A stretch of 64,000 nucleotides of DNA from Nitrosomonas sp. (GTDB taxonomy: Bacteria; Pseudomonadota; Gammaproteobacteria; Burkholderiales; Nitrosomonadaceae). A program made the position numbers and the translations under genes. Positions 4,969 to 39,051 of this stretch are shown here, piece by piece; position 1 is the stretch's first letter, and each line of letters begins with the position of its first letter. The DNA is taken from assembly GCF_019635155.1 (NCBI RefSeq), contig NZ_JAHBZY010000015.1, positions 1 to 64,000 of the forward strand. Reading direction: 5' to 3'. The notes beneath the pieces were generated by a model that was not told where the DNA came from, ran no database searches, and saw only the letters and a list, made by a program, of their open reading frames with translations.

Positions 4969-5460
4969 ATGCAACTGAACAAATCACTGTTGATTATATT
5001 AATTCTGACAATTGGGCTTGCGGCCCCGGCGCAAGCGGGAGAAGCCACACTGAAACATTTTGTTTCCGGCAGTTATCAGCAATTACTTGAAAAGCACACC
5101 GGTCAACCGGTCATGCTGGTGATCTGGGCGACGACGTGCTCAACCTGCATGAAGAAAATGCCTTTACTGAGTAAACTACAGGAGGATCATAATGATATAA
5201 AAATCATCATGCTTTCTGTCGATGAATTAGCGGATACAAAGCAAGTACAAGCCGCATTGGTTAAGCATGAACTGACCGGCCTGGAAAACTGGATTTTTGC
5301 CGATGAAAACGCACAACGCCTACGCTACGAAATCGATCCGCAATGGTTCGGAGAACTGCCGCGCACTTATTTTCTCGATAGCAAGCATCAGCGCGAAGGC
5401 ATCAGCGGCGCTTTATCTTACGAAGATTATCAATCGATTTTCTACGTGCTCGCCAATTAA
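4969..5460 (+). CDS. Periplasmic TlpA/thioredoxin-like protein
   Basis: A 163-residue protein with a signal peptide (LLIILILTIGLAAPAQA, cleaved near residue 23) and a thioredoxin fold. The redox motif Cys-Ser-Thr-Cys lies in VIWATTCSTCMKKMP (about residues 56-60), and LPRTYFLD supplies the cis-proline loop. TlpA-type proteins reduce or isomerise periplasmic thiols and often serve cytochrome or copper-site assembly. The RBS is GGAG about 9 bp before ATG. It follows the receptor by 52 bp, and its stop overlaps the next start (TAATG), so it sits in one operon with the BNR protein and probably CopC. Confidence 0.85.
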   Translation: MQLNKSLLIILILTIGLAAPAQAGEATLKHFVSGSYQQLLEKHTGQPVMLVIWATTCSTCMKKMPLLSKLQEDHNDIKIIMLSVDELADTKQVQAALVKHELTGLENWIFADENAQRLRYEIDPQWFGELPRTYFLDSKHQREGISGALSYEDYQSIFYVLAN

Positions 5461-23483: not shown

Positions 23484-24479
23484 TTAAGCGATGGGTATAA
23501 TCCGCAATGAGCCATGGCCGAGAATCGAAGCCGTAGCGACATTCTGAATTGTGATTGCTTTCGCGATGCGTTGCGCATCATCATCGCTGCCGCTCGCATT
23601 GATATCTTTTGCCGCATTGCCGAATGCCCAGGCATCGACCACGAACATATCGTATTGCGGCCCGTATTTGGCACGGATCGCGGCACGATCAATCGTGGTG
23701 CCGGGTTTGGTATTCAATGCGATGCCGAGTTCATTGTGCTTGCCCACCAATTCTTCATAAAGCGCTCCGCATTCTTGCGCCGCTTGCAGCACCGCAGCCC
23801 GGTCTTCGGCAAAAAAGCCCGCTTGACCCAGACGGTTCTTAGCTTGCTGTACAATCGAACCCTTTTCCGATTCCGTAACATCGATACCCAGTTTGCCGAC
23901 CAGCGCTGCAATATCATTGATGCGCTCCGAGATATGTTGATAAATCGTCGGTGCTTTGGCGCATGCGCCGCAACCGCAAGGACCGTGATCATCGCCGTGC
24001 ACGCCGGTGGAATGCCCTTTCGATTTGAGCGTATTGATCGCCTGTGTCGTCAATTGAAGCTCATTGACATCCCCAGCGGCTGAGCCACCGCCAAGATCAC
24101 CGCCATAAACGATGCTCAATGTGCCACCGGCTGCACATGGCGCGCTGAAACGCGATCCATCGGCTTTGGTACGGCCATCGACACAAATTTCCGGCACTGC
24201 TCCGTTTGCAGGCACATTAAATGTACCGGCTGCAATCGATTGATACATCTGGACCAAAACATTTTTATCGATATCATCCCGATTGTCAGGCCCGATGCTA
24301 CCCAAGCCCAAGTTAAATTGACCTAGTGAAATATACTGATTAAGACTTTCTTCAGCGGCGGAAGTGGTTGAGGCGGGTGTTGAAGCTGATTGTGGTTGTG
24401 ATTTTGTTTCCGGAACTGCCGATTCTGTTTCTTGACTGCCTGTAAAATGTTTTAACAGATTTTTTAAACTTTCAAACAT
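23484..24479 (-). CDS. Putative carbonic anhydrase with CxDxR...HxxC motif (cadmium-CA-like)
   Basis: 331 residues. After a Ser/Thr/Pro-rich linker (residues about 15-45) the core carries EICVDGRT (Cys99, Asp101, Arg103) and HGDDHGPCGCGAC (His165, Cys168, with Cys170 and Cys173). The Cys-x-Asp-x-Arg...His-x2-Cys order is the zinc/cadmium site of beta-type carbonic anhydrases and their zeta-class (CDCA-like) mimics. Overall similarity to classical beta enzymes is low, so I favour a cadmium-CA-like assignment. AAGGA lies about 9 bp before ATG. The gene precedes the SulP transporter on the same strand, with the MITE in between. Confidence 0.62.
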   Translation of the reverse strand: MFESLKNLLKHFTGSQETESAVPETKSQPQSASTPASTTSAAEESLNQYISLGQFNLGLGSIGPDNRDDIDKNVLVQMYQSIAAGTFNVPANGAVPEICVDGRTKADGSRFSAPCAAGGTLSIVYGGDLGGGSAAGDVNELQLTTQAINTLKSKGHSTGVHGDDHGPCGCGACAKAPTIYQHISERINDIAALVGKLGIDVTESEKGSIVQQAKNRLGQAGFFAEDRAAVLQAAQECGALYEELVGKHNELGIALNTKPGTTIDRAAIRAKYGPQYDMFVVDAWAFGNAAKDINASGSDDDAQRIAKAITIQNVATASILGHGSLRIIPIA

Positions 24480-24775
24480 TTTAGATATCCTTTGTAGTAA
24501 TTAGTCATTTGATCATAAGTTCTATCTCATACTTGCCATATTCAAAGTAACTCAAGGAAAGGGCAAACATTGCCAAGGCCTTCTCTATCAATTTATCAAT
24601 TCCCTAATACGATAAAAATAAACTCGGCGTTAGGATTCTAACACTACTTTTCTGTACCTCAGATAGTAATTCTCCATTTTTTGCTGAGCGATGCGGCAAT
24701 TTTCTTTACAAGCATCTGGGAGCGCAGCACCTTGCGCCTAACCATTTACCCCAAAACGACAATGCCCTTCGATTA
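24480..24775. other. Intergenic region between the conflict operon and the carbonic anhydrase gene
   Basis: No gene is seen. It holds the likely promoter region of the carbonic anhydrase-like gene, a TGCGGCAATTT half-motif at about 24692-24702 like the motif at 1983 and 8070, and a REP-like sequence at its right edge. Confidence 0.5.
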
Positions 24776-24781
24776 TTACAC
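24757..24781. repeat. Degenerate copy of the REP-like palindrome at 30455
   Basis: CAATGCCCTTCGATTATTAC here differs by only two bases from CAATGCCCTTCGGTTATTGC at 30459-30478, in the same orientation. The two copies bracket the three-gene vWA/MoxR/TIR operon as direct repeats. Confidence 0.55.
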
Positions 24782-27721
24782 TCCATCGCCTATTCCCTCG
24801 CAGTCCATCCCCCGCTTGTCCCCAGCGCGGCTGCCAATCGGCTGCTGGCCTGCTCCGAGCACCCGGCTTGGCTTGAGCTCATGACCTCGGGCAAGGCGAA
24901 AGCCAATGCGGCGGCTGCGAAGGGACGGATCGTCGTAGTAGCGGTAAGCAGAACGACAGTCCCTGCCGCCGTCGATCCACGAGCCGCCGCGCAGCACGCG
25001 GTAGGCGCCTGATTCCGGCCCTTGCGGGTCGATGACTCGCTCCGCTGGATACTCGTCATACCTGTCCTGACACCATTCCCATACGTTGCCGTGCATCTCA
25101 TACAATCCCCAAGCATTCGACGCATAACTTCTAACCGCCGCGGTTTGCTGCAAAGCGCCTTCACCCCAATTATCATAATCATCCCAAGTACCGCGATAAT
25201 TCGCTTTATCAAGCGCAATGTCAGAACCAAAATGAAACGCTGATTCAGTTCCCGTCCGGCAAGCATTTTCCCATTCGGCTTCAGTGGGTAAGCGCAACTG
25301 CAACTGCGGGTGGCTGTTATTGAGCTGTTTCAGGAAATTTTGCACATCTTCCCAACTGACTGACTCCACCGGCAATTGCTCTCGTTTGAAACTGCTCGGA
25401 TTCTTGCGCATCACTGCCTGCCATAGTTCCTGCGTGCAAACCGTTTCCGCAAGCCAATAACCTTGCGTGAGAATAACTGGATGTTGATGTTCCCAGTCAT
25501 AACGCCCTGCTTCATTTGCCGGAGAACCCATCATAAAATTATTCGGCTCGATCCAGCGGAAACGCTGGATGACGCCAGAGACTTCAGCGTCGGCGTAGAA
25601 GCCGTATTGGTCACGGCCTGCATTGGTTGCCCAATCCGGTTTATGTGCTGCTCCCTCATACACAGGCAAATAGAACCAGAAGCCTGGTAGCATGCCTTCA
25701 CCGTCTCGCCATTCAGGCGGATGCCAGTACCAGCGGTAGACATTACCTTTGTTATCCATCGATTCTGCATTTAAACCACCGGTTGTATTGGCGATCAATA
25801 TCGCCCAATCAGGTTTGGTAAAACGCTCTACGGTTAATTCTTCTCCATCAATGTGCAGCTTTTGTTTCTCCTGTTCATCCAGCGTAAATTCATATTGATC
25901 GATTTTGCTTAACGGTAATAAAGTATTACTGGATGCTCCCAAAGCTCCGACATGCTGACGCAACATACAAGACGATGATGTAACAAACTCAGCCAGCACA
26001 CTGCCCAATCTAAATCCATCCGTTTCTTCCTGGAATCGATCAGACGTGGTCAGTTTTAGCTCTCTAACTCCCTGTTGATAAAGAATAAAGGTTTGCTGCT
26101 TGGATGTTTCTGTTTCAAGAAATGACATAACAGTCTGCATATCCCAGTCATCCGGTATAACGACTTCACTGTTTATACCCTGCTTACCCAGACGGCTTGC
26201 CCAGATAGCCTGATAACATGAATTCTTGGATAGTACTTCATCATGCTGCCTATCCAAAAGATTCTCGAGAAAAGACGGCAGCGTCGGTATTTCCTGTTTC
26301 TGTTCAATAGATGCTTTTATCAATTCGCACATAGCTAGCCGTGCAGATTCGATTTCTTCACGATCATCCGCATCAAGATTCTCTTTCATTAACTGCTCAA
26401 GAATTAACAGCTCTTCATCACGCTGCGTTTGAAACACATGCCGATGGTAACGCCGAATCATGCGGGAAATGATTCTTGCCAGTTCCGGATTCTCTTGTGC
26501 CATGCTCATGAACTGCTGCCGATATTCTTTCAAGGTATCCGGTTTATAATAAAAACCCAACGGTGTTGGCACGACATTTTCATGATGCCACGCCGCCAAT
26601 TCATGACCGATGTCAACTTCTGAAAGCGGCAAACAATGACGAATCGCTCTTAATAATGCTGGTTCCACCAGCTTAGCCGGTGACAACCAGGCCAGCAACT
26701 GTTTGGCACCGCCGGCATCCTTCTGCATTGGCGTTTCGACGCTATTATCCGGCGGTGGCACATATCTTACAGGCGATAGTTGACTATTCCTGTCCCAACA
26801 AACGCAATCAAAAAGGCCTATTAAGTCCGGCGCCAGGTAACGTTCTGGCACAGGTACTAACGCTACCGTGCGACAACCGGCCTGGCGCAGCAGATTGCCT
26901 ACTCTCAGCCAAGAACGTAAAGCCATTCCTGTTCTATCCAGCAACCCCAAATCACTTAGGACAAACACCGTATTGCCTGCAACAGGTGCTTTCCATTGTT
27001 TGTTGACAATGGCTTTACCTTGAACAATTTGCACATTACCACCAGGCCGCTGCAGGATTTTTTGAATGACCAATCCCGTTCCGCCTCGTAATTTCTCTAA
27101 TTGATGTAAGACTTGATTGTAATCACGATTGAACAAATGAGTTCGCTGTGGCCTGTCAACCAGCACCTGAACCGATGCCGCCCAACGGCGACGTGTCCGG
27201 CGTGGTATTTTTTGCAATAACAAGCCATTTGCCATCGTTTTGATAATACGCGGCATATCCGGTTGCCGCGTTACTTTAGTCTCGCTAAGCAATGACCTTA
27301 ACACTGGCCATAATCTGGACCATGGCACCAGAGGTTCTTTGTACGGTGGCTGATCAGATGGTCGATGCATGGCTGCCGGATTCAATCGTTTAGCTTCTTG
27401 ATACCAGCGCGGCTTGGGTAATGCATTTATGCTTGCTGGTTCTGGGAGTAAGCTGCTTCCCTTTCTTTCTGTAATCGCGTAATAAACGGCTTGCGTTTTT
27501 TTTTGCGGCGCCGGTATTGGCTCTATGGTAATTTTATGTGGAAATGGCTTATTTGATTGATCCTGTACTAGCGACGGCAAGATCAGTTGTACTTTCTTTC
27601 GAGGCGGGGCAACGTATCCGCTATATTCTGCAACCGTATCCAGCGCGTCGCCACCCAGTTGCTTTAGTGCACGTAATAAATCAGCCCGGTTCAACCGCTT
27701 TGCGGACTGGTAGGCATGCAT
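24776..27721 (-). CDS. Degenerate vWA protein with C-terminal FGE-sulfatase (C-type lectin) domain; DGR-type variable region
   Basis: 981 residues from ATG 27721, whose A is shared with the MoxR stop (TGATG). A GTG one codon earlier is possible. Residues about 180-300 (VQVLVDRPQRTHLF, NTVFVLSDLGLLDRTG, GCRTVALVPVP) look like a CoxE/MoxR-linked vWA domain lacking an intact DxSxS site. Residues about 310-700 are unassigned and partly helical. Residues about 720-946 are an FGE-sulfatase domain (FRWIEPNNFMMGSPANE, RLPTEAEWENACRTG, YEMHGNVWEWCQD, YRVLRGGSW, IGFRLARG). Only one Cys is in the position of the catalytic FGE pair, so it is probably a binding domain. The C-terminal 34 residues are translated repeat DNA after loss of the stop seen in the paralogue. 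It is the third gene of a TIR-MoxR-vWA operon, probably the sensor. Confidence 0.8.
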   Translation of the reverse strand: MHAYQSAKRLNRADLLRALKQLGGDALDTVAEYSGYVAPPRKKVQLILPSLVQDQSNKPFPHKITIEPIPAPQKKTQAVYYAITERKGSSLLPEPASINALPKPRWYQEAKRLNPAAMHRPSDQPPYKEPLVPWSRLWPVLRSLLSETKVTRQPDMPRIIKTMANGLLLQKIPRRTRRRWAASVQVLVDRPQRTHLFNRDYNQVLHQLEKLRGGTGLVIQKILQRPGGNVQIVQGKAIVNKQWKAPVAGNTVFVLSDLGLLDRTGMALRSWLRVGNLLRQAGCRTVALVPVPERYLAPDLIGLFDCVCWDRNSQLSPVRYVPPPDNSVETPMQKDAGGAKQLLAWLSPAKLVEPALLRAIRHCLPLSEVDIGHELAAWHHENVVPTPLGFYYKPDTLKEYRQQFMSMAQENPELARIISRMIRRYHRHVFQTQRDEELLILEQLMKENLDADDREEIESARLAMCELIKASIEQKQEIPTLPSFLENLLDRQHDEVLSKNSCYQAIWASRLGKQGINSEVVIPDDWDMQTVMSFLETETSKQQTFILYQQGVRELKLTTSDRFQEETDGFRLGSVLAEFVTSSSCMLRQHVGALGASSNTLLPLSKIDQYEFTLDEQEKQKLHIDGEELTVERFTKPDWAILIANTTGGLNAESMDNKGNVYRWYWHPPEWRDGEGMLPGFWFYLPVYEGAAHKPDWATNAGRDQYGFYADAEVSGVIQRFRWIEPNNFMMGSPANEAGRYDWEHQHPVILTQGYWLAETVCTQELWQAVMRKNPSSFKREQLPVESVSWEDVQNFLKQLNNSHPQLQLRLPTEAEWENACRTGTESAFHFGSDIALDKANYRGTWDDYDNWGEGALQQTAAVRSYASNAWGLYEMHGNVWEWCQDRYDEYPAERVIDPQGPESGAYRVLRGGSWIDGGRDCRSAYRYYDDPSLRSRRIGFRLARGHELKPSRVLGAGQQPIGSRAGDKRGMDCEGIGDGV
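24800..25030 (-). repeat. DGR-type variable region VR1 and downstream homology
   Basis: This block is closely similar to 31241-31484. Identity begins abruptly at the codons for DPQG and runs past the gene end. Within the core 24905-24976 (24 codons) there are 15 differences from the other copy, all at codon positions 1 or 2 and none at position 3. Flanking codons differ only at third positions (for example Gly GGG/GGC and Ser TCA/TCG). This pattern fits replacement of template adenines in AAY codons. No template repeat was recognised in the window. Confidence 0.8.
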
Positions 27722-28842
27722 CACTCAGATGCCTCGTTTACTTCTTGCGCATCTTTTCTATTTTGCACTTTGCTATCAATCTGCTTTTGCATCCCTGGAT
27801 ATTTCTTCAACGCAAAATCTTTAATCGTTTTTAGCAGTTCCTTTTGCTGTTCTGTATCATTGGGCACGAGCTCATCGAGCACACGCAGCATATCCAGATA
27901 CTCAGCCTGGCCGGGCGGGGTCACACCCAGACTATTCGCTTCCAGTCGATCTTTGAATAGCTGATCTGCTGCTTCTTGCAGCACATCTTCATGCAATCGG
28001 CATTTTTGTAACGGTACATCATTTTCATCACGCTGAATCTCGGTATCACTTTCTGATTCACCCTTTTTCATAACAGGAAAATGAAAAACAGCCCGTTCTT
28101 TTAATCTCCGAATCAACTCGTTTCTTTCTTTTGGCAATTGTAAATCCAACACAAGGCACCGGCGAATAAAGGCACCTGGCAATTGTCGATCTTCATTGGT
28201 CGTCAGCACGACTAGCGGACGGTTTGCCAATTCACCATGCGCCACACCAACTGTTTTCTTGATCCAGGGCACAGTAAATTGTCCATTGTCCAAGGTCTCC
28301 AACAAACTGTTGGGAAGATCGGCATCGGCTTTATCGATTTCATCGAGCAGCAGAACAATGCCTTTTTTCTCATCGCCCGGATCGTTTACATCCGGTATGA
28401 AAAAAGGATGCTTCCCTTTCTTACTGGATGCATCGTTCCAGTCAAAAGCCCACCAGAGTATACCGGGACTTAAGTATTCTTCTGGATTCAGCATCTGGTC
28501 GATTTGTCCATCACTTTTATTTTTGCCTATGGCGCTCAATACCTGGGCATTCCCCAACCGGCTAACCGCATCGAAGCGATACCATAAATCCTGTATTTCG
28601 GTGTGCGCATCGACGACATGCGACAAAAACTTGCGCCCCAGCACTTTAGCTGCCGCCCGCGCCAACTGGCTTTTCCCTGTGCCAGGCTCACCCCGCACCA
28701 GCAGCGGTCGCCCTGACGCCAGTGCTGCACGTACCGCCTGTGCTGTTCTTTCATCAAAAACATGTACGCTTTTACGCCATGTTCCTATCGCAGGCAAAAC
28801 ATGCTTGATGTCGACAAAAGCTTTAAGTCCAGGAATTTTCAT
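27721..28842 (-). CDS. MoxR-type AAA+ ATPase of a ternary conflict system
   Basis: 373 residues. Walker A GEPGTGKSQL (51-60), Walker B IVLLLDEIDKAD (162-173), sensor 1 VVLTTNEDRQ (211-220) and an arginine-finger candidate AFIRRCLVLDL (224-234) are all present, so it should hydrolyse ATP. MoxR ATPases typically work with vWA proteins as chaperone-like remodelling machines. Here the gene starts 3 bp after the TIR gene and overlaps the vWA-FGE gene at TGATG, which shows tight coexpression. In the ternary conflict systems the MoxR/vWA pair is thought to gate the effector. Confidence 0.9.
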   Translation of the reverse strand: MKIPGLKAFVDIKHVLPAIGTWRKSVHVFDERTAQAVRAALASGRPLLVRGEPGTGKSQLARAAAKVLGRKFLSHVVDAHTEIQDLWYRFDAVSRLGNAQVLSAIGKNKSDGQIDQMLNPEEYLSPGILWWAFDWNDASSKKGKHPFFIPDVNDPGDEKKGIVLLLDEIDKADADLPNSLLETLDNGQFTVPWIKKTVGVAHGELANRPLVVLTTNEDRQLPGAFIRRCLVLDLQLPKERNELIRRLKERAVFHFPVMKKGESESDTEIQRDENDVPLQKCRLHEDVLQEAADQLFKDRLEANSLGVTPPGQAEYLDMLRVLDELVPNDTEQQKELLKTIKDFALKKYPGMQKQIDSKVQNRKDAQEVNEASE

Positions 28843-28845
28843 AAG

Positions 28846-30399
28846 TTATGTGTACTTGTTAAATGTTTTAAGAAATTCTTCTATTGCACTCATCAAATCG
28901 AATTCAATTCCACCAAAAGAAGATTGAGTCATATTTTTATCTTTTATACCAAAACGCACCAATGGGATTTCAAGCTGCATCAAAAAATTTTCACAAATTT
29001 TCCGATAGGAATCATCGCCACCGTCCTCAAATTTAATAGCCACACAATATTTTTTTGGATCGTGCTCTATTTCACGCAATGTATTGATTTTAGCTTTTAA
29101 TCTTTCTAAATCATCTTCATCTAATAACTGCTCTCGTTCATCGTCCATAATAATATTCCAGATAATACGTTTTACTTCATCCAGACGAACTTGCTCATGC
29201 CAAGTCAGTGGATTTGTATCTATAAAGATCAGATGCTTACCAGTGATCTCGTGACCATCAATAGTAACCGTCGCTTTTCTTTCCTGTTGCCTGGCGATAA
29301 ACAACTCTACGCCACCCAATGTCCGTACACGCAGCTCAAAATAAAACCCGTGAAGATCATCATTTAACCAATCCGACACATCACGCGCATCATCTTCAAC
29401 AACAAGACTCAGCACAAGATAACCTAAAATCTGCTCAATTTTTTCTATGATATTCTTTTGATAAGGAATCGCTTTCTCAAAAATCTGCCCACCTTTCTCT
29501 TTATCCAGACACATGACGACGGTGTTAGTCAGTACTTTATTGATAACCGGGCATTTTTTACCGCCAAGCTGCAATGCAGTGATTAGATTTTCTGCGATAT
29601 CTTTAGCATTACATTCAATTTGATCCCTTTCAAGCATCACCAAAACTTTATTTAATTCTCCATATAGAACCTGCTTACATACCGCCATTGCATCGCCCGA
29701 GAGTGTTTCAGCAATATGCTTCTGTATAACTTGGATATATTTGTCTTGGAATTTCGGAGTGGGTCGAGCAGTCTTTTTTTCGTCTCTAACAAGTGGATTA
29801 GATTCATCTGGCTCGATGAAATCTCTGATTCCATTTTTTAAAGGGCTTATTTTGTTAAGAATTTGAGAGTAATGCTGTGCTTTGAGTTGATCCAGCGGTG
29901 TTGTTAGGCGATTTGCAGCAAAATCTAGCAATTCATCAAGCGCTTGACTTATATCGCGATACAGAACTGATTTATCAATCAATTTTCTTCTATTCTTTGA
30001 ATTCTTATCACTTAATATTCCATCTGCTTCTTTTTCTTTAGCTTCCCAATAAGAAATAATGTCATCGTGATACTTGTCATCTCCTAATTTGCAATTAACA
30101 TCGATAAACAATGCATGAGTACGTTCGTTGAAACCTCCTTTTCTCCATATTGCTAACAATTCATACATACACCAAGTAGAGCGAAAATAATCATCGCTAA
30201 ATATCGTAATGATGTGCTCACCGCCACTCAATCGATCCATAAAATCTCTGATCAAATCGCCGTGCTGCATCTCGTTTTTATCGCGAATCAAGTTGATATT
30301 ACGACGCTGGTGGCATAGCCCCTCCAATTCATCCACAACACGTGTATGCTTTTCGTGCGCCCACGAATATGAAACAAAAACGTTAACTGGTTTTGTCAT
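28846..30399 (-). CDS. TIR-domain effector protein, VMAP-like C-terminal region
   Basis: 517 residues. The TIR domain occupies about 1-135: VNVFVSYSWAHEKHTRVVDEL (first strand and BB-loop region) and SDDYFRSTWCMYELLAIW with the candidate catalytic Glu80. Bacterial TIR domains commonly cleave NAD+ or make nucleotide signals. The remaining about 380 residues are not a family I can name. They include a charged helical middle and a C-terminal alpha/beta region (LIFIDTNPLTWHEQVRLDEVKRIIWNII, KYCVAIKFEDGGDDSYRKICENF), compatible with the vWA-MoxR-associated (VMAP) component. It is the first gene of the operon. This segment is more AT-rich than its surroundings. Confidence 0.85.
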   Translation of the reverse strand: MTKPVNVFVSYSWAHEKHTRVVDELEGLCHQRRNINLIRDKNEMQHGDLIRDFMDRLSGGEHIITIFSDDYFRSTWCMYELLAIWRKGGFNERTHALFIDVNCKLGDDKYHDDIISYWEAKEKEADGILSDKNSKNRRKLIDKSVLYRDISQALDELLDFAANRLTTPLDQLKAQHYSQILNKISPLKNGIRDFIEPDESNPLVRDEKKTARPTPKFQDKYIQVIQKHIAETLSGDAMAVCKQVLYGELNKVLVMLERDQIECNAKDIAENLITALQLGGKKCPVINKVLTNTVVMCLDKEKGGQIFEKAIPYQKNIIEKIEQILGYLVLSLVVEDDARDVSDWLNDDLHGFYFELRVRTLGGVELFIARQQERKATVTIDGHEITGKHLIFIDTNPLTWHEQVRLDEVKRIIWNIIMDDEREQLLDEDDLERLKAKINTLREIEHDPKKYCVAIKFEDGGDDSYRKICENFLMQLEIPLVRFGIKDKNMTQSSFGGIEFDLMSAIEEFLKTFNKYT

Positions 30400-30454
30400 T
30401 TACGCACTCATTGGTTTAATCGATTTTTGGATTGTACTGCAGGAAAAGTCGTAA

Positions 30455-30481
30455 GGTGCAATGCCCTTCGGTTATTGCACC
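30455..30481. repeat. REP-like palindrome upstream of the TIR operon
   Basis: GGTGCAAT (30455-30462) and ATTGCACC (30474-30481) flank GCCCTTCGGTT, giving a short hairpin. A near-identical direct copy lies at 24757-24781, so the pair brackets the operon. Similar short palindromes are scattered in many proteobacterial genomes. Confidence 0.6.
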
Positions 30482-30616
30482 CTATAGTCTTAAGAGAATT
30501 CTTTTTCCACATACGGTGAGTTACATCTGTATTCCGAAAATACTCATAGTCAATAATTCAATACCGTTGTTTTAAAACATAATTGTAACGCCAGTTACAT
30601 ACTCTGGGGGCGTTGC

Positions 30617-30629
30617 CGTGCAAAGGTCT
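30617..30629 (-). mobile_element. Solitary IS/MITE terminal repeat ahead of higB
   Basis: CGTGCAAAGGTCT is the reverse complement of AGACCTTTGCACG, the same end found at 8506 and on both sides of the MITE at 23121. No partner end is seen nearby. It lies 25 bp before higB and suggests past IS insertion or recombination here. Confidence 0.6.
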
Positions 30630-30654
30630 TATGAAAATGATTATAATAAAAATC

Positions 30655-30933
30655 ATGATCAAATCATTCAAGCATAAAGGATTGCAGCAATTTTTCGAAA
30701 GCGGCAATTGCGCCGGTATCATTCCGGCACACCAAACAAAATTAAGGATGAGATTGGTTGCATTGGATACCGCCACTGGTATCGAGGACATGCGTTTGCC
30801 CGGTTTTGATCTGCATGCATTGAAAGGCGACAAAGCAGGATTATGGGCAATTCGCGTTAACAAAAACTGGCGCATCACTTTCGAGTTTTCTGACGGCAAT
30901 GCGACCATCGTCAATTACGAGGATTATCACTGA
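30655..30933 (+). CDS. higB: HigB/RelE-family mRNA-interferase toxin
   Basis: 92 residues from ATG 30655 (MIKSFKHKG), the canonical family start; the longer frame from 30613 reads out of the IS end. The pattern GLQQFFESGNCAGIIPAHQTKLRMRLVALDTA, LHALKGDKAGLWAIRVNKNWRITFEF and VNYEDYH is typical HigB. Such toxins cleave mRNA on the ribosome. The stop overlaps the antitoxin start (TGATG), the usual coupling. Confidence 0.95.
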   Translation: MIKSFKHKGLQQFFESGNCAGIIPAHQTKLRMRLVALDTATGIEDMRLPGFDLHALKGDKAGLWAIRVNKNWRITFEFSDGNATIVNYEDYH

Positions 30934-31223
30934 TGAGTATGCACAATCCACCGCACCCCGGCGAATTTATTCGCGAAGTCTATCTTGAGCCGTTGGGTAT
31001 TAGTTACCGGGCTGTCGCGCTGAAACTGCATGTATCGCCATCGACATTTCATCGGATCGTTCAAGGCCGCGGCAGCATCAGTTCCGAGATGGCATTGCGA
31101 CTATCAAAAACACTCGGCCGTAGCCCGGAAAGCTGGCTGGCGATGCAAAGCAACTACGATCTCTGGCAAACAAAACAGCGCGTCAATCTCGACGAAGTTG
31201 AAAAATTAGCGATTTTGGGTTAA
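30933..31223 (+). CDS. higA: HigA antitoxin, XRE-type HTH
   Basis: 96 residues. HPGEFIREVYLEPLGISYRAVALKLHVSPSTFHRIVQG is an HTH of the HigA family, with the recognition helix in VSPSTFHRIVQG. LGRSPESWLAMQSNYDLW is the usual C-terminal region. HigA neutralises HigB and represses the operon. It converges on the second FGE-domain gene, whose downstream repeat begins 18 bp after its stop. Confidence 0.96.
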   Translation: MSMHNPPHPGEFIREVYLEPLGISYRAVALKLHVSPSTFHRIVQGRGSISSEMALRLSKTLGRSPESWLAMQSNYDLWQTKQRVNLDEVEKLAILG

Positions 31224-31240
31224 TTCGCTGAGCCTCCCCG

Positions 31241-31484
31241 CAGTCCATCCCCCGCTTGTCCCCCGCGCGCTCCGCCAGCGCGGCTGCCAATCGGCTGCTG
31301 GCCTGCTCCACTGCCTTGACTTGGCTTGAGCTCATTGACCTCGGGCAAGGCGAAAGCCAAAGTTGATGAAGCGATGGGACGGATCGTCGCGGTAGCGGTG
31401 AGCAGAACGACAGTACCCGCCGCGGTCGAACCACGAGCCGCCGCGCAGCACGCGGTAGGCGCCCGATTCCGGGCCTTGCGGGTC
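31241..31484 (-). repeat. DGR-type variable region VR2 and downstream homology
   Basis: This is the partner of 24800-25030. The variable core is 31359-31430 (24 codons), flanked by invariant GGSW and GFRLARG codons. The downstream part continues past the stop at 31332 and includes a hairpin at 31266-31282 that the other copy has lost. The downstream GC-rich identity is in the position of an IMH (initiation of mutagenic homing) element. Confidence 0.8.
31266..31282. other. GC hairpin downstream of VR2
   Basis: CGCGCT (31266-31271), loop CCGCC, AGCGCG (31277-31282). It lies about 50 bp beyond the stop of the FGE gene. Known DGR targets often carry a short hairpin just beyond the variable region that raises homing efficiency. 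The VR1 copy lacks about 14 bp here, including one arm. Confidence 0.5.
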
Positions 31485-32138
31485 CGTGACTGGTTGCGAT
31501 GGATAATCGCCCAACCAATCCTGGCACCATTCCCAAACATTACCATGCATTTGGTGCAGCCCCCAGTCGTTGCACGGTAATTCCTTCACCGCCACCGTTT
31601 GTTTCCGGTATTCGCTGTTGCTGCCATTGTTGTATGGGTAATTGCCATCGAAATTTACATACCTTGAGTCGATCTGATCGCCCCAACTGAACGGCGTAGT
31701 GGTTCCGGCACGGCAGGCGTACTCCCATTGCGCTTCCGTCGGCAGGCACAACTTCAATTCCGCTTTCATATCATTCATCTTACTGATGAAGGCTTGTGCA
31801 TCATGCCAATTAACATTTTCCACCGGGTTCTCATCACCTTTAAATTCGCTGGGATTTTCGCCCATGATCACTTGCCACAACGTTTGCGTCACCGGCGTAT
31901 CCGCAATCCAGAAACCTTTGGTCAGAGTAACTTCTTGTTGCAATTCATCTTCATAACGTTCCGGTTCATCGCTTGGCGAACCCATCAAAAATGTTCCCGG
32001 CTCGCACCAGCGGAACGCTTGCCGCACGCCTTTGTACGTGAATGCCATCCACAGCCCGAATTCATCCTCGCCCCAATCGGATGCCCACGCTTCGGGGAAT
32101 TCTTCGGGGAAAATAGTGTGTTGACGGATTTTGAACAT
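31332..32138 (-). CDS. FGE-sulfatase (C-type lectin fold) protein with DGR-type variable C-terminus
   Basis: 268 residues, almost entirely one FGE-sulfatase domain: FRWCEPGTFLMGSPSDEPERY, LTKGFWIADTPVTQTLWQVIMG, LCLPTEAQWEYACRAGT, HQMHGNVWEWCQDW, YRVLRGGSW and FGFRLARGQ at the very end. A short N-terminal extension (about 35 residues) precedes it. The variable segment between GGSW and GFRLA differs from the long paralogue at 11 codons, only in their first two positions. The CRSAHR Cys remains, but the first Cys of the catalytic FGE pair is absent, so it is likely a binding protein. It starts 1 bp after the DUF5995 gene stop, so the two are translationally coupled. Confidence 0.85.
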   Translation of the reverse strand: MFKIRQHTIFPEEFPEAWASDWGEDEFGLWMAFTYKGVRQAFRWCEPGTFLMGSPSDEPERYEDELQQEVTLTKGFWIADTPVTQTLWQVIMGENPSEFKGDENPVENVNWHDAQAFISKMNDMKAELKLCLPTEAQWEYACRAGTTTPFSWGDQIDSRYVNFDGNYPYNNGSNSEYRKQTVAVKELPCNDWGLHQMHGNVWEWCQDWLGDYPSQPVTDPQGPESGAYRVLRGGSWFDRGGYCRSAHRYRDDPSHRFINFGFRLARGQ

Positions 32139-32139
32139 A

Positions 32140-32919
32140 TCATTCCAGAATTTCGATGCGTTGACGCGTTGTGCCGCGTTCTCCCAGGCGGATGATGCCG
32201 ATGATAAGTGAGCCGTAAAAACCCGGATGGGAGATCACATCGGAGAACAATGCCATCATCTCGTCTTTTTCCAGAATTGCCTGTTGCCGTTGCGATTCCG
32301 TGAGTGGAGACAATTTCTCCGCGAATAACCAGGCGGCGTTGCGGGCTTTTTCCATGCTGAAATTGATAAGAGCGGTCTGTACCGATCCCAAAAAACGGTT
32401 AAGCAATCCGAAGACCGGCCAGATTTCCGCCAGTTCGCTTTGCACGTCACCTACCAAATCGGCCAGCACTTTATTGATCTTCTCGAAATCACCCTTGAGG
32501 TTTTGCAATTCTTCCGGCGGCACGGTTTCCGCCGCGGCGATGCCCAGATCCAGATTGATATGCGCATTCATGCCCAATAACAAATGTTGCAATACAATCG
32601 GCCACCATTGTTGCGTGGCGTCGAATGCCCGCACCCACGATTTCGTCGGCGTTTGATCGGTAAAATGCAGATAGCAGGCGCGAATATAGCGATTGGCGAA
32701 AATCACATCGAGACGTTCCATGCGCAGGCCATCGTCGAAGTAACTTTGCTCGATACCTTTTTTGACTTGAATGGTTACCTTGCGATACAGCGCCGCAAAA
32801 TAGCCCATGCGTGAGTTGTTTTGTTTGGACCATTCGACAATGGCGGTTAATTGCGCAATGACTTCGTCAATGGTTGTAGCTGGTGTTGCAATCACGTAGG
32901 GAAAGCTATTGGGCGGCAT
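32140..32919 (-). CDS. DUF5995-like helical protein
   Basis: 259 residues, largely alpha-helical, with no signal peptide. LLLGMNAHINLDLGIAAAETV (about residues 112-132) resembles the signature of the DUF5995 family, whose function is unknown. HPGFYGSLIIGIIRLGERGTTRQRI is a hydrophobic C-terminal segment that might touch membrane. AAGGAGA lies 5 bp before the ATG. Operon position directly ahead of the variable FGE protein suggests that the two work together, perhaps as a sensor-effector pair (inference). Confidence 0.65.
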   Translation of the reverse strand: MPPNSFPYVIATPATTIDEVIAQLTAIVEWSKQNNSRMGYFAALYRKVTIQVKKGIEQSYFDDGLRMERLDVIFANRYIRACYLHFTDQTPTKSWVRAFDATQQWWPIVLQHLLLGMNAHINLDLGIAAAETVPPEELQNLKGDFEKINKVLADLVGDVQSELAEIWPVFGLLNRFLGSVQTALINFSMEKARNAAWLFAEKLSPLTESQRQQAILEKDEMMALFSDVISHPGFYGSLIIGIIRLGERGTTRQRIEILE

Positions 32920-38297: not shown

Positions 38298-39051
38298 GCA
38301 CGCTTAAAGTATCTGCAATCGCTTGTTCGGCCAAACGTGCCAGTTCCCGCCGATTTCTCGAACCGCATGGAATCGGCGGATTAAAAATCAATGCCACATC
38401 AATCCGTGGTTGGCTCAAAATCTTCTGCAGCGATAAAATAAGGGATGAATCGATATACGCGGCTTCCTTGCAAACCTCACCGGCAGCGTTATGGTATCTG
38501 ATTGCCACTGGATAGAGTAAGGCGTCCGCATTAACTGCCGATTGCAGCAATGAAGCATGAAAATGATTCAATTGCGTACCATCCGTCGTTGTTCCCTCCG
38601 GAAATACCGTTACCGTCTCACCGTTTTCCAGCACTTCACCAATTTTTTTATTAATACGTTGCGTATCGCTGCGTCTTGCACGCTCGATAAATAGCGTACC
38701 AGCATTCCGGCTTAGAAAACCCAAGATGGGCCATTGGCTGATCTCGGCCTTAGCAACAAAACGCGTTGGATGTGCAGCCATCAACACGCACACATCAAGC
38801 CAGGAAACATGATTCGCTGCAAGCAATGCTCGTTGTACTTGCCACACAGGCAAGCTTCCGCAACATTGCAGTCTGATTTCAAGACAGGTCAATACGCCCT
38901 TTGCCCATCGTTGCATCATCGTACGCTGGATGTACGAAGGAAAATAGGGATAAACCAGCGATTGCAACACACCGGAAAACACCTGCAGCAACAATTTAAT
39001 CAATCGGATAACCCGCAATAACAATGGCGTGGTTTTTTGCATGGCAGGCAC
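38248..39051 (-). CDS. 1-acyl-sn-glycerol-3-phosphate acyltransferase family
   Basis: 267 residues. The acyltransferase HX4D motif is in AANHVSWLDVCVL and the second block is VTVFPEGTTTDG, with LFIERARRSD between them. An N-terminal hydrophobic segment (LRVIRLIKLLLQVFSGVLQSL) anchors it at the inner membrane. The family transfers an acyl chain to lysophosphatidate (PlsC) or related lysolipids; the exact acceptor cannot be told. The 3' end overlaps apaH on the opposite strand by 50 bp. Confidence 0.9.
   Translation of the reverse strand: MPAMQKTTPLLLRVIRLIKLLLQVFSGVLQSLVYPYFPSYIQRTMMQRWAKGVLTCLEIRLQCCGSLPVWQVQRALLAANHVSWLDVCVLMAAHPTRFVAKAEISQWPILGFLSRNAGTLFIERARRSDTQRINKKIGEVLENGETVTVFPEGTTTDGTQLNHFHASLLQSAVNADALLYPVAIRYHNAAGEVCKEAAYIDSSLILSLQKILSQPRIDVALIFNPPIPCGSRNRRELARLAEQAIADTLSVPIVHKESGKFSGLPSE

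Follow-up and report, generated by a model that had tools for sequence, protein, structure and literature searches.

Two FGE-fold genes in a TIR/MoxR-type module of Nitrosomonas are probably targets left behind by a diversity-generating retroelement

We analysed a stretch of 64,000 nucleotides from Nitrosomonas sp. (NCBI RefSeq assembly GCF_019635155.1, contig NZ_JAHBZY010000015.1, positions 1 to 64,000 of the forward strand), hereafter called the window, in which two genes encoding formylglycine-generating enzyme (FGE)-sulfatase domains end in near-identical DNA. A first-pass annotation made from the sequence alone had proposed that both 3′ ends are variable regions (VRs) of a diversity-generating retroelement (DGR), served by a reverse transcriptase (RT) that copies a template repeat (TR) located outside the window. 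The Nitrosomonas genomes compared are designated by G-numbers, G000 being the source genome of the window, contigs by C-numbers and loci by L-numbers. The genes and features of the module are the following.

24776..27724, minus strand: long variable protein of 982 aa with a C-terminal FGE-sulfatase domain that carries a VR (PF03781 at residues 725-946, E 8e-40)
24805..24853, minus strand: inverted-repeat element downstream of VR A, damaged, 13 bases fewer than copy B, the loop and one arm being gone
24884..25009, minus strand: variable region A tract of 42 codons, core 24905-24976, no silent difference from VR B
27721..28842, minus strand: MoxR-like AAA ATPase (AAA_5 E 1.3e-13; bpMoxR 22.3 bits, below the cut-off of 27)
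28846..30399, minus strand: TIR-domain protein of 517 aa (TIR_2 E 2.5e-8)
30613..30933, plus strand: HigB-like toxin, one partner of a toxin-antitoxin pair that lies between the short FGE and TIR genes (PF05015 E 1.6e-23)
30933..31223, plus strand: HTH protein beside the HigB-like toxin (HTH_3 E 1.8e-8), presumably a HigA-type antitoxin, judging by its neighbour
31245..31306, minus strand: inverted-repeat element downstream of VR B, intact, aligned with the relatives' copies
31332..32138, minus strand: short variable protein of 268 aa, a stand-alone FGE/C-type-lectin-fold domain (PF03781 E 1.1e-46)
31338..31463, minus strand: variable region B tract, core 31359-31430, no silent difference from VR A
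32140..32919, minus strand: DUF5995 gene, by synteny a chromosomal marker near FGE genes in several relatives (PF19458 E 1.7e-75)

The open reading frame of the long FGE gene ends at 27724, where 27721 had been given. Read codon by codon, the two cores differ at 15 bases within 11 of the 24 codons, with ten differences at first, five at second and none at third codon positions, which bears out the count made in the first-pass annotation. Third positions are where ordinary divergence would preferentially put differences; if 15 differences are placed randomly over the 72 core bases, the probability that none falls on a third position is 0.0009. The tract without silent differences exceeds the core and spans 42 codons, the core being flanked by 11 codons before and seven after that are fully identical, and the identity starts at a GGC codon, approximately the same point at which the TR-VR identity starts in the relative G022 described below. 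Differences outside the core had been described as silent only: third positions are indeed the commonest in the 26 codons 5′ of the identical tract (10 differences), but three first- and four second-position differences are also present there, and the immediate flanks carry none. Overall, the two paralogues share 52% amino acid identity.

An intact DGR was found at the place corresponding to the window in the relative G022 (Nitrosomonas sp. isolate D5_Bin_16, NZ_JAKFWH010000060.1), where an FGE-VR gene is followed by an HRDC gene, a DGR-type RT, the TR and a second FGE-VR gene, beside DUF5995 and MDH genes as in the window. Nine proteins encoded in the window, starting with the FGE gene and extending to position 39051, have matches at this locus with 73-94% identity. 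The G022 RT carries the motifs LPIGSLTSQ and YMDD and is 35% identical to brt of the Bordetella phage BPP-1, and the TR is adenine-rich with AAC codons. Within the 96-base interval from RGGSW to GFR, the G022 TR has an adenine at 14 of the 15 sites that vary in the window, compared to 12 of the 81 non-variable bases (Fisher p = 5.2e-9). Because of this coincidence, both window FGE genes are, on the sequence evidence, DGR variable regions, and, as had been proposed, the homologous template of G022 shows that they derive from adenine-rich codons flanked by RGGSW and GFR. The expectation of adenines at exactly the 15 variable positions, read on the G022 TR as the source genome's own was not found, held for all positions except one, which falls within a CAC codon of that TR and at which the window's own template may have had other bases. 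Nine third-position states common to both window VRs differ from the G022 template, so that both appear to have been copied from one other template; most likely, as far as the sequences tell, they derive from a single template of their own lineage, distinct from the G022 TR. A pattern search for the TR motif gave four matches in the genome collection, namely G022 and three Verrucomicrobia/Planctomycetes records, and none in IMG/VR.

The short FGE protein was modelled by AlphaFold with a pLDDT of 91 from an alignment of 35 sequences, whose rows included 34 FGE relatives from IMG/VR (best 80 of 94; 78 loci), while a model from the single sequence had a pLDDT of 30 and was rejected. The top PDB match of the model is Treponema TvpA (2y3c, E 5e-21, TM 0.77) and, together with the PF03781 match, it places the VR at the C terminus of the protein in a C-type-lectin/FGE fold, as in DGR variable proteins. 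A role as formylglycine-generating enzyme was considered and discarded: of the cysteine pair C336 and C341 (human FGE numbering taken from PDB titles, sites placed by eye on the alignment) only the C341 place holds a cysteine, the C336 place being an aspartate that sits in a template-A codon. The domain, whose model best matches TvpA and which lacks one FGE active-site cysteine, would be a ligand sensor rather than an enzyme.

An inverted repeat downstream of the VR is a trait of DGR targets, and in the window it is intact for VR B and damaged for VR A. This element of about 60 bases was found in 18 copies in the 22 loci scanned (eight relatives and the window), 34-71 bases from the GFRL codons in the 17 of 18 copies measured, and its core occurs in the source genome at the two window VRs only. 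In 17 aligned copies, the named pairs were formed in 92.8% of cells, compared to at most 52.2% when slid, and four of 15 pairs changed on both sides, which 10 of 500 shuffles reached, the relatedness of the copies inflating both the pairing and the compensation counts. According to Guo et al. (PMC3240598), an inverted repeat just 3′ of the VR is required for efficient homing in BPP-1 and lies 4-34 bases from the VR in phage DGRs; the Nitrosomonas element is farther away. Scanning of 24400-32400 with Rfam at the gathering threshold returned nothing. A palindromic repeat in two direct copies (81%; 24760-24791 and 30459-30490) brackets the long-FGE, AAA and TIR genes and was matched on both strands at 30456-30480; by eye, palindromes of a similar kind follow some VRs in relatives.

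The source genome is a draft assembly of 3.09 Mb in 49 contigs, listed as 100% complete. Neither the PF00078 profile nor the G022 RT as query (E 1e-6) matched an RT in this assembly, and both find RTs in relatives. DNA searches of the genome with the VR or the G022 TR retrieved just the two VRs and no matching TR (nine of nine candidates scored), and a further DNA search for the TR gave, besides the two VRs, five matches that were 16-21 bases long, at E 0.2-0.8 (13 of 13 candidates scored). The AAY-rich pattern (GGSWNNN) matched once, at a TR remnant of another class on contig C4. The accessory gene was sought with the HRDC protein as query, and the sole match was weak (33% identity), inside a 604-aa frame and not a stand-alone gene. 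The RT predicted outside the window was thus not found in the source assembly, nor was a matching TR; under the refuting condition set in the first-pass annotation, the idea of a live DGR fails for this assembly, and the DGR origin is upheld by the template found in a relative. A phage or plasmid origin of the window VRs was also considered and rejected, their DNA having no match in either collection. All RT-matching records of the plasmid (3314) and phage (137) collections are less than 60% identical to the G022 RT, and IMG/VR, in a search reaching close relatives only, gave one RT locus at 31% identity.

The source genome has a second target class, to which the remnant on contig C4 belongs.

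G000:C4:908-947 (L129), minus strand: TR breaking off early (pattern match at 912-929), resembling the first part of a template, the downstream sequence ceasing to match

It lies downstream of a further FGE gene (C4 1103-3871), at a distance of about 0.16 kb. Over its 40 bases, three of the four VRs of this class (two on C4, one on C47) differ from it at its six adenines alone, with three, three and four differences, and at none of the 34 other bases, and the fourth has two A-site and five other differences from it. Two C4 VRs differ from each other at 12 bases over 26 codons, with zero differences at third positions. One of the C4 VR genes encodes a TIR-nSTAND1-FGE protein, a similar 946-aa gene was also seen, and a third C4 FGE gene adjoins a TIR gene and an AAA gene; the source genome has seven FGE-domain matches in total. 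No RT match was obtained at the C4 locus with PF00078 or the G022 RT. The C4 targets would have the same history as the window class, with the truncated template still in place. The genes after the remnant, named by eye from the sequence, resemble an antitoxin of the ribbon-helix-helix type and a PIN gene with a disrupted frame.

In the genus, VR-like DNA was found in 21 of 85 genomes and an RT with the DGR motif in at least 12 of 85 (30 loci motif-checked). VRs were read by motif in the window and in 39 of 40 regions obtained from VR-DNA and RT matches (L078 omitted), yielding 33 VRs of the window class, with the CRSA motif, and one TR in 12 genomes; 30 of the 33 VRs (32 codons) were used in the difference counts, and genomes whose matches escaped the motif, such as G084, are uncounted. 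In the DNA searches of relatives at most eight or ten candidates per genome were scored, and in a few of these genomes a weak TR may have gone unnoticed. The 12 target-bearing genomes are G000, G002, G006, G016, G022, G041, G050, G053, G073, G075, G080 and G090. Seven of them (G000, G002, G016, G041, G053, G075 and G080, with completeness of 91% for G075 and 89% for G080) gave no RT match, as judged by the G022 RT query at E 1e-6 and the motif check of the 30 loci, and a complete matching TR is present in G022 only. The DGRs of G006 and G050 use other templates. In G090 the RT belongs to the HRDC-type clade (61% identical) and the template is again a different one, and in G073 the RT is 79% identical and the TR is truncated where contig C202 stops, at 5059 within the TR match. 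The G006 genome is one contig of 3.74 Mb, in which the G022-TR matches are its four VRs among the 10 of 16 candidates scored; being a single contig, an assembly gap cannot explain its absent matching TR.

Among three of the four G006 VRs the pairwise comparisons give 11, 15 and 17 differences, none of them at a third position, and the fourth has seven third-position differences from the three others. Within-genome silent counts are 0 in G000 and in three pairs each of G006 and G075, 2-6 in G002 and 7-10 in G053 and G080, with extremes of 0/24 in the window genome and up to 10/24 in G053. From the sequences, this range is as expected if copying halted at different times.

Three genomes show additional features. 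At G010:C21:36000-41136 (L308; also L293) a VR precedes a complete template, NNHPDNMRAATRNNNHPDNRNNNIGFR, which is of another class and lies about 0.7 kb before a contig end, and no DGR-motif RT was seen in that genome; either a further loss or a break in the assembly would account for this. In G016 the FGE gene (L075:8439-9225) has an apparent frameshift near the VR, and G020 (L127), in one contig, has a VR-like FGE gene of another class and no RT match.

We consider it probable, at roughly 0.84, that the FGE-fold genes of the window are DGR targets that were copied recently and whose RT and template were then lost, within a TIR/MoxR-type module. By homology to G022, reverse transcription of an AAC-rich template of the NNNGRN-C-RSANR kind, with errors confined to adenines, would have supplied the copies now present in both genes, the copying being presumably recent because no silent difference has accumulated over 42 codons. 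Template and RT would afterwards have been lost from the lineage, as their absence from the assembly suggests, and the two binding faces would now be fixed. The TIR, MoxR-like AAA, long-FGE and short-FGE genes would constitute a module of a type for which the literature proposes a role as invader-sensing conflict system, in which the FGE domain may act as ligand sensor and the AAA and TIR genes may relay and execute the response.

Several observations, given here together with the alternatives that some of them favour, weigh against this reading. RT-bearing genomes show silent counts of 0 to 8 (G073) and of 1 (G022), so that a high count alone proves no loss and live and lost systems are not separable by counts. 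In the RT-less G053 and G080, and in three of the six G075 pairs, the 7-10 silent differences look like those of old paralogues. Pooling 17 VR pairs, each from within one of the seven RT-less genomes, gives differences in 281 of 442 comparisons at template-A sites and in 19/187, 24/187 and 85/408 comparisons at other first, second and third positions. In the downstream element, nine further pair types were counted, where shuffles average 8.7 and 292 of 500 reach nine.

The whole module is absent at the syntenic place of G066 and G067, the nearest relatives on the basis of the single MDH gene, and the VRs may have arrived already diversified. The module would then have been transferred from a DGR-bearing cell after diversification into a lineage that never had the RT and TR of this class, which we regard as rather unlikely; it is a variant of the preferred explanation with the loss placed in the donor, and the odds of the two overlap. 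The related TIR-AAA-long FGE module of G053 and G080, at 37-54% identity, also speaks for a transfer. Against it, G022, G053, G016 (some 5 kb off) and the window all have FGE genes near DUF5995, which points to a location shared since long ago, and the truncated TR of the second class shows that a TR was once in the source genome. Other genes lie near DUF5995 in G066, G067 and G071, and this neighbourhood (L062, L072/L166, L075, L162, L163, L170) may be an insertion hotspot.

Alternatively, a live DGR could act in trans, the cell or its population having RT and TR on a replicon or in a gap that the assembly lacks; being a draft, the assembly could have missed an unassembled plasmid. Zero silent differences indicate very recent copying and fit an RT still active in the population as well as they fit a recent loss; in G073 and G010, contig breaks coincide with TRs or lie close to them; and some window-class targets of G090 lie off the RT contig, though the TR there is of another class. 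We nevertheless judge this distinctly improbable: RT genes are unique sequence that should assemble, and none was found in the 49 contigs; the plasmid, phage and IMG/VR records are as distant from the G022 RT as given above; the one-contig G006 likewise lacks a matching TR among the candidates scored; and the template on C4 is itself physically broken. An origin without any retroelement, through ordinary duplication, positive selection acting on the binding face and gene conversion of the flanks, is hardly credible, since, although the genes are paralogues at 52% identity and converted flanks could resemble each other, selection predicts neither the template adenines of another species at 14 of 15 sites nor identical silent bases within variable codons, and gene conversion would have levelled the variable codons too.

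Regarding the other genes of the module, the N-terminal extension of about 700 aa of the long variable protein has no Pfam match, and no vWA or VMAP match was obtained among the five window genes scanned. A MoxR-vWA-VMAP ternary conflict system was rejected: an AAA gene is present, but its bpMoxR score is below the cut-off and vWA and VMAP are without match in these five genes. A MADS system was rejected as well, the NCBIfam MadB ATPase match of the AAA gene reaching 64 of 475 bits, far under the cut-off, and PADLOC gave weak matches only (best E 1.9e-7, TIR gene). By eye, a PIN-type gene lies near the DGR loci of G006 (L065) and G011 (L079); toxin-antitoxin genes may recur near DGR loci, considering the HigBA pair of the window, the C4 genes and these PIN-type genes.

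Among the systems compared, the G022 DGR has the same target family and neighbourhood as the window and a template that explains its variable sites; unlike G022, the window genome has no RT or TR found, and HigBA, TIR and AAA genes lie between its FGE genes. In Dore et al. (2024; PMC10907252), Nitrosomonas is named among DGR bearers, DGR loci of multicellular bacteria are described with a MoxR ATPase beside a long-extension target and a short CLec-only target, often with TIR nearby, and MITE-like arrays replace RT or TR at some loci. The window module resembles these loci as described there, but no window-class RT or TR is found in the assembly and no vWA or VMAP in the scanned genes, and the latter difference also holds with respect to the conflict systems that Kaur et al. 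described (2020; PMC7159879), which the module otherwise resembles. Treponema denticola strains in which no RT and TR were identified still carry VRs that differ from each other at template adenines, according to PMC4891356, which also mentions HRDC. The likeness to the window consists in targets without RT and TR, and the best PDB match of the window protein is TvpA of this species; the T. denticola case concerns strains of one species and many predicted lipoproteins, whereas here several species of one genus, TIR/MoxR-linked proteins and a truncated TR are concerned. Our searches of the open-licence literature listed no account of recurrent DGR loss across Nitrosomonas.

A single-gene case is all3226, a cyanobacterial gene of Anabaena/Nostoc PCC 7120. 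It has remnant TR-VR homology and no nearby RT, as the window does, in one gene of one genome, and its authors suggest that the machinery was removed after a variant had been selected (PMC7517822). DGRs, TIR/MoxR-type modules and leftover targets are thus already in print; what is added here is the recurrence within one genus and the truncated TR.

DGRs are usually counted via their RT. With seven of the 12 target-bearing genomes without an RT match and a complete matching TR in one of 12, RT-based surveys would miss the targets of these seven. Tentatively, and with more doubt than confidence, we propose that Nitrosomonas DGRs are hit-and-run elements, in which a short-lived RT-template core diversifies several immune-type sensors simultaneously and is then lost, leaving a frozen repertoire, repeatedly and in separate lineages; silent VR differences per genome would then be a fossil clock of the last diversification round. 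If the loss is real and repeated, binding faces made by DGRs can be fixed and inherited without the machinery, and this would connect programmed hypermutation with defence-type genes in a way that can be tested, silent sites perhaps serving to time the latest diversification round.

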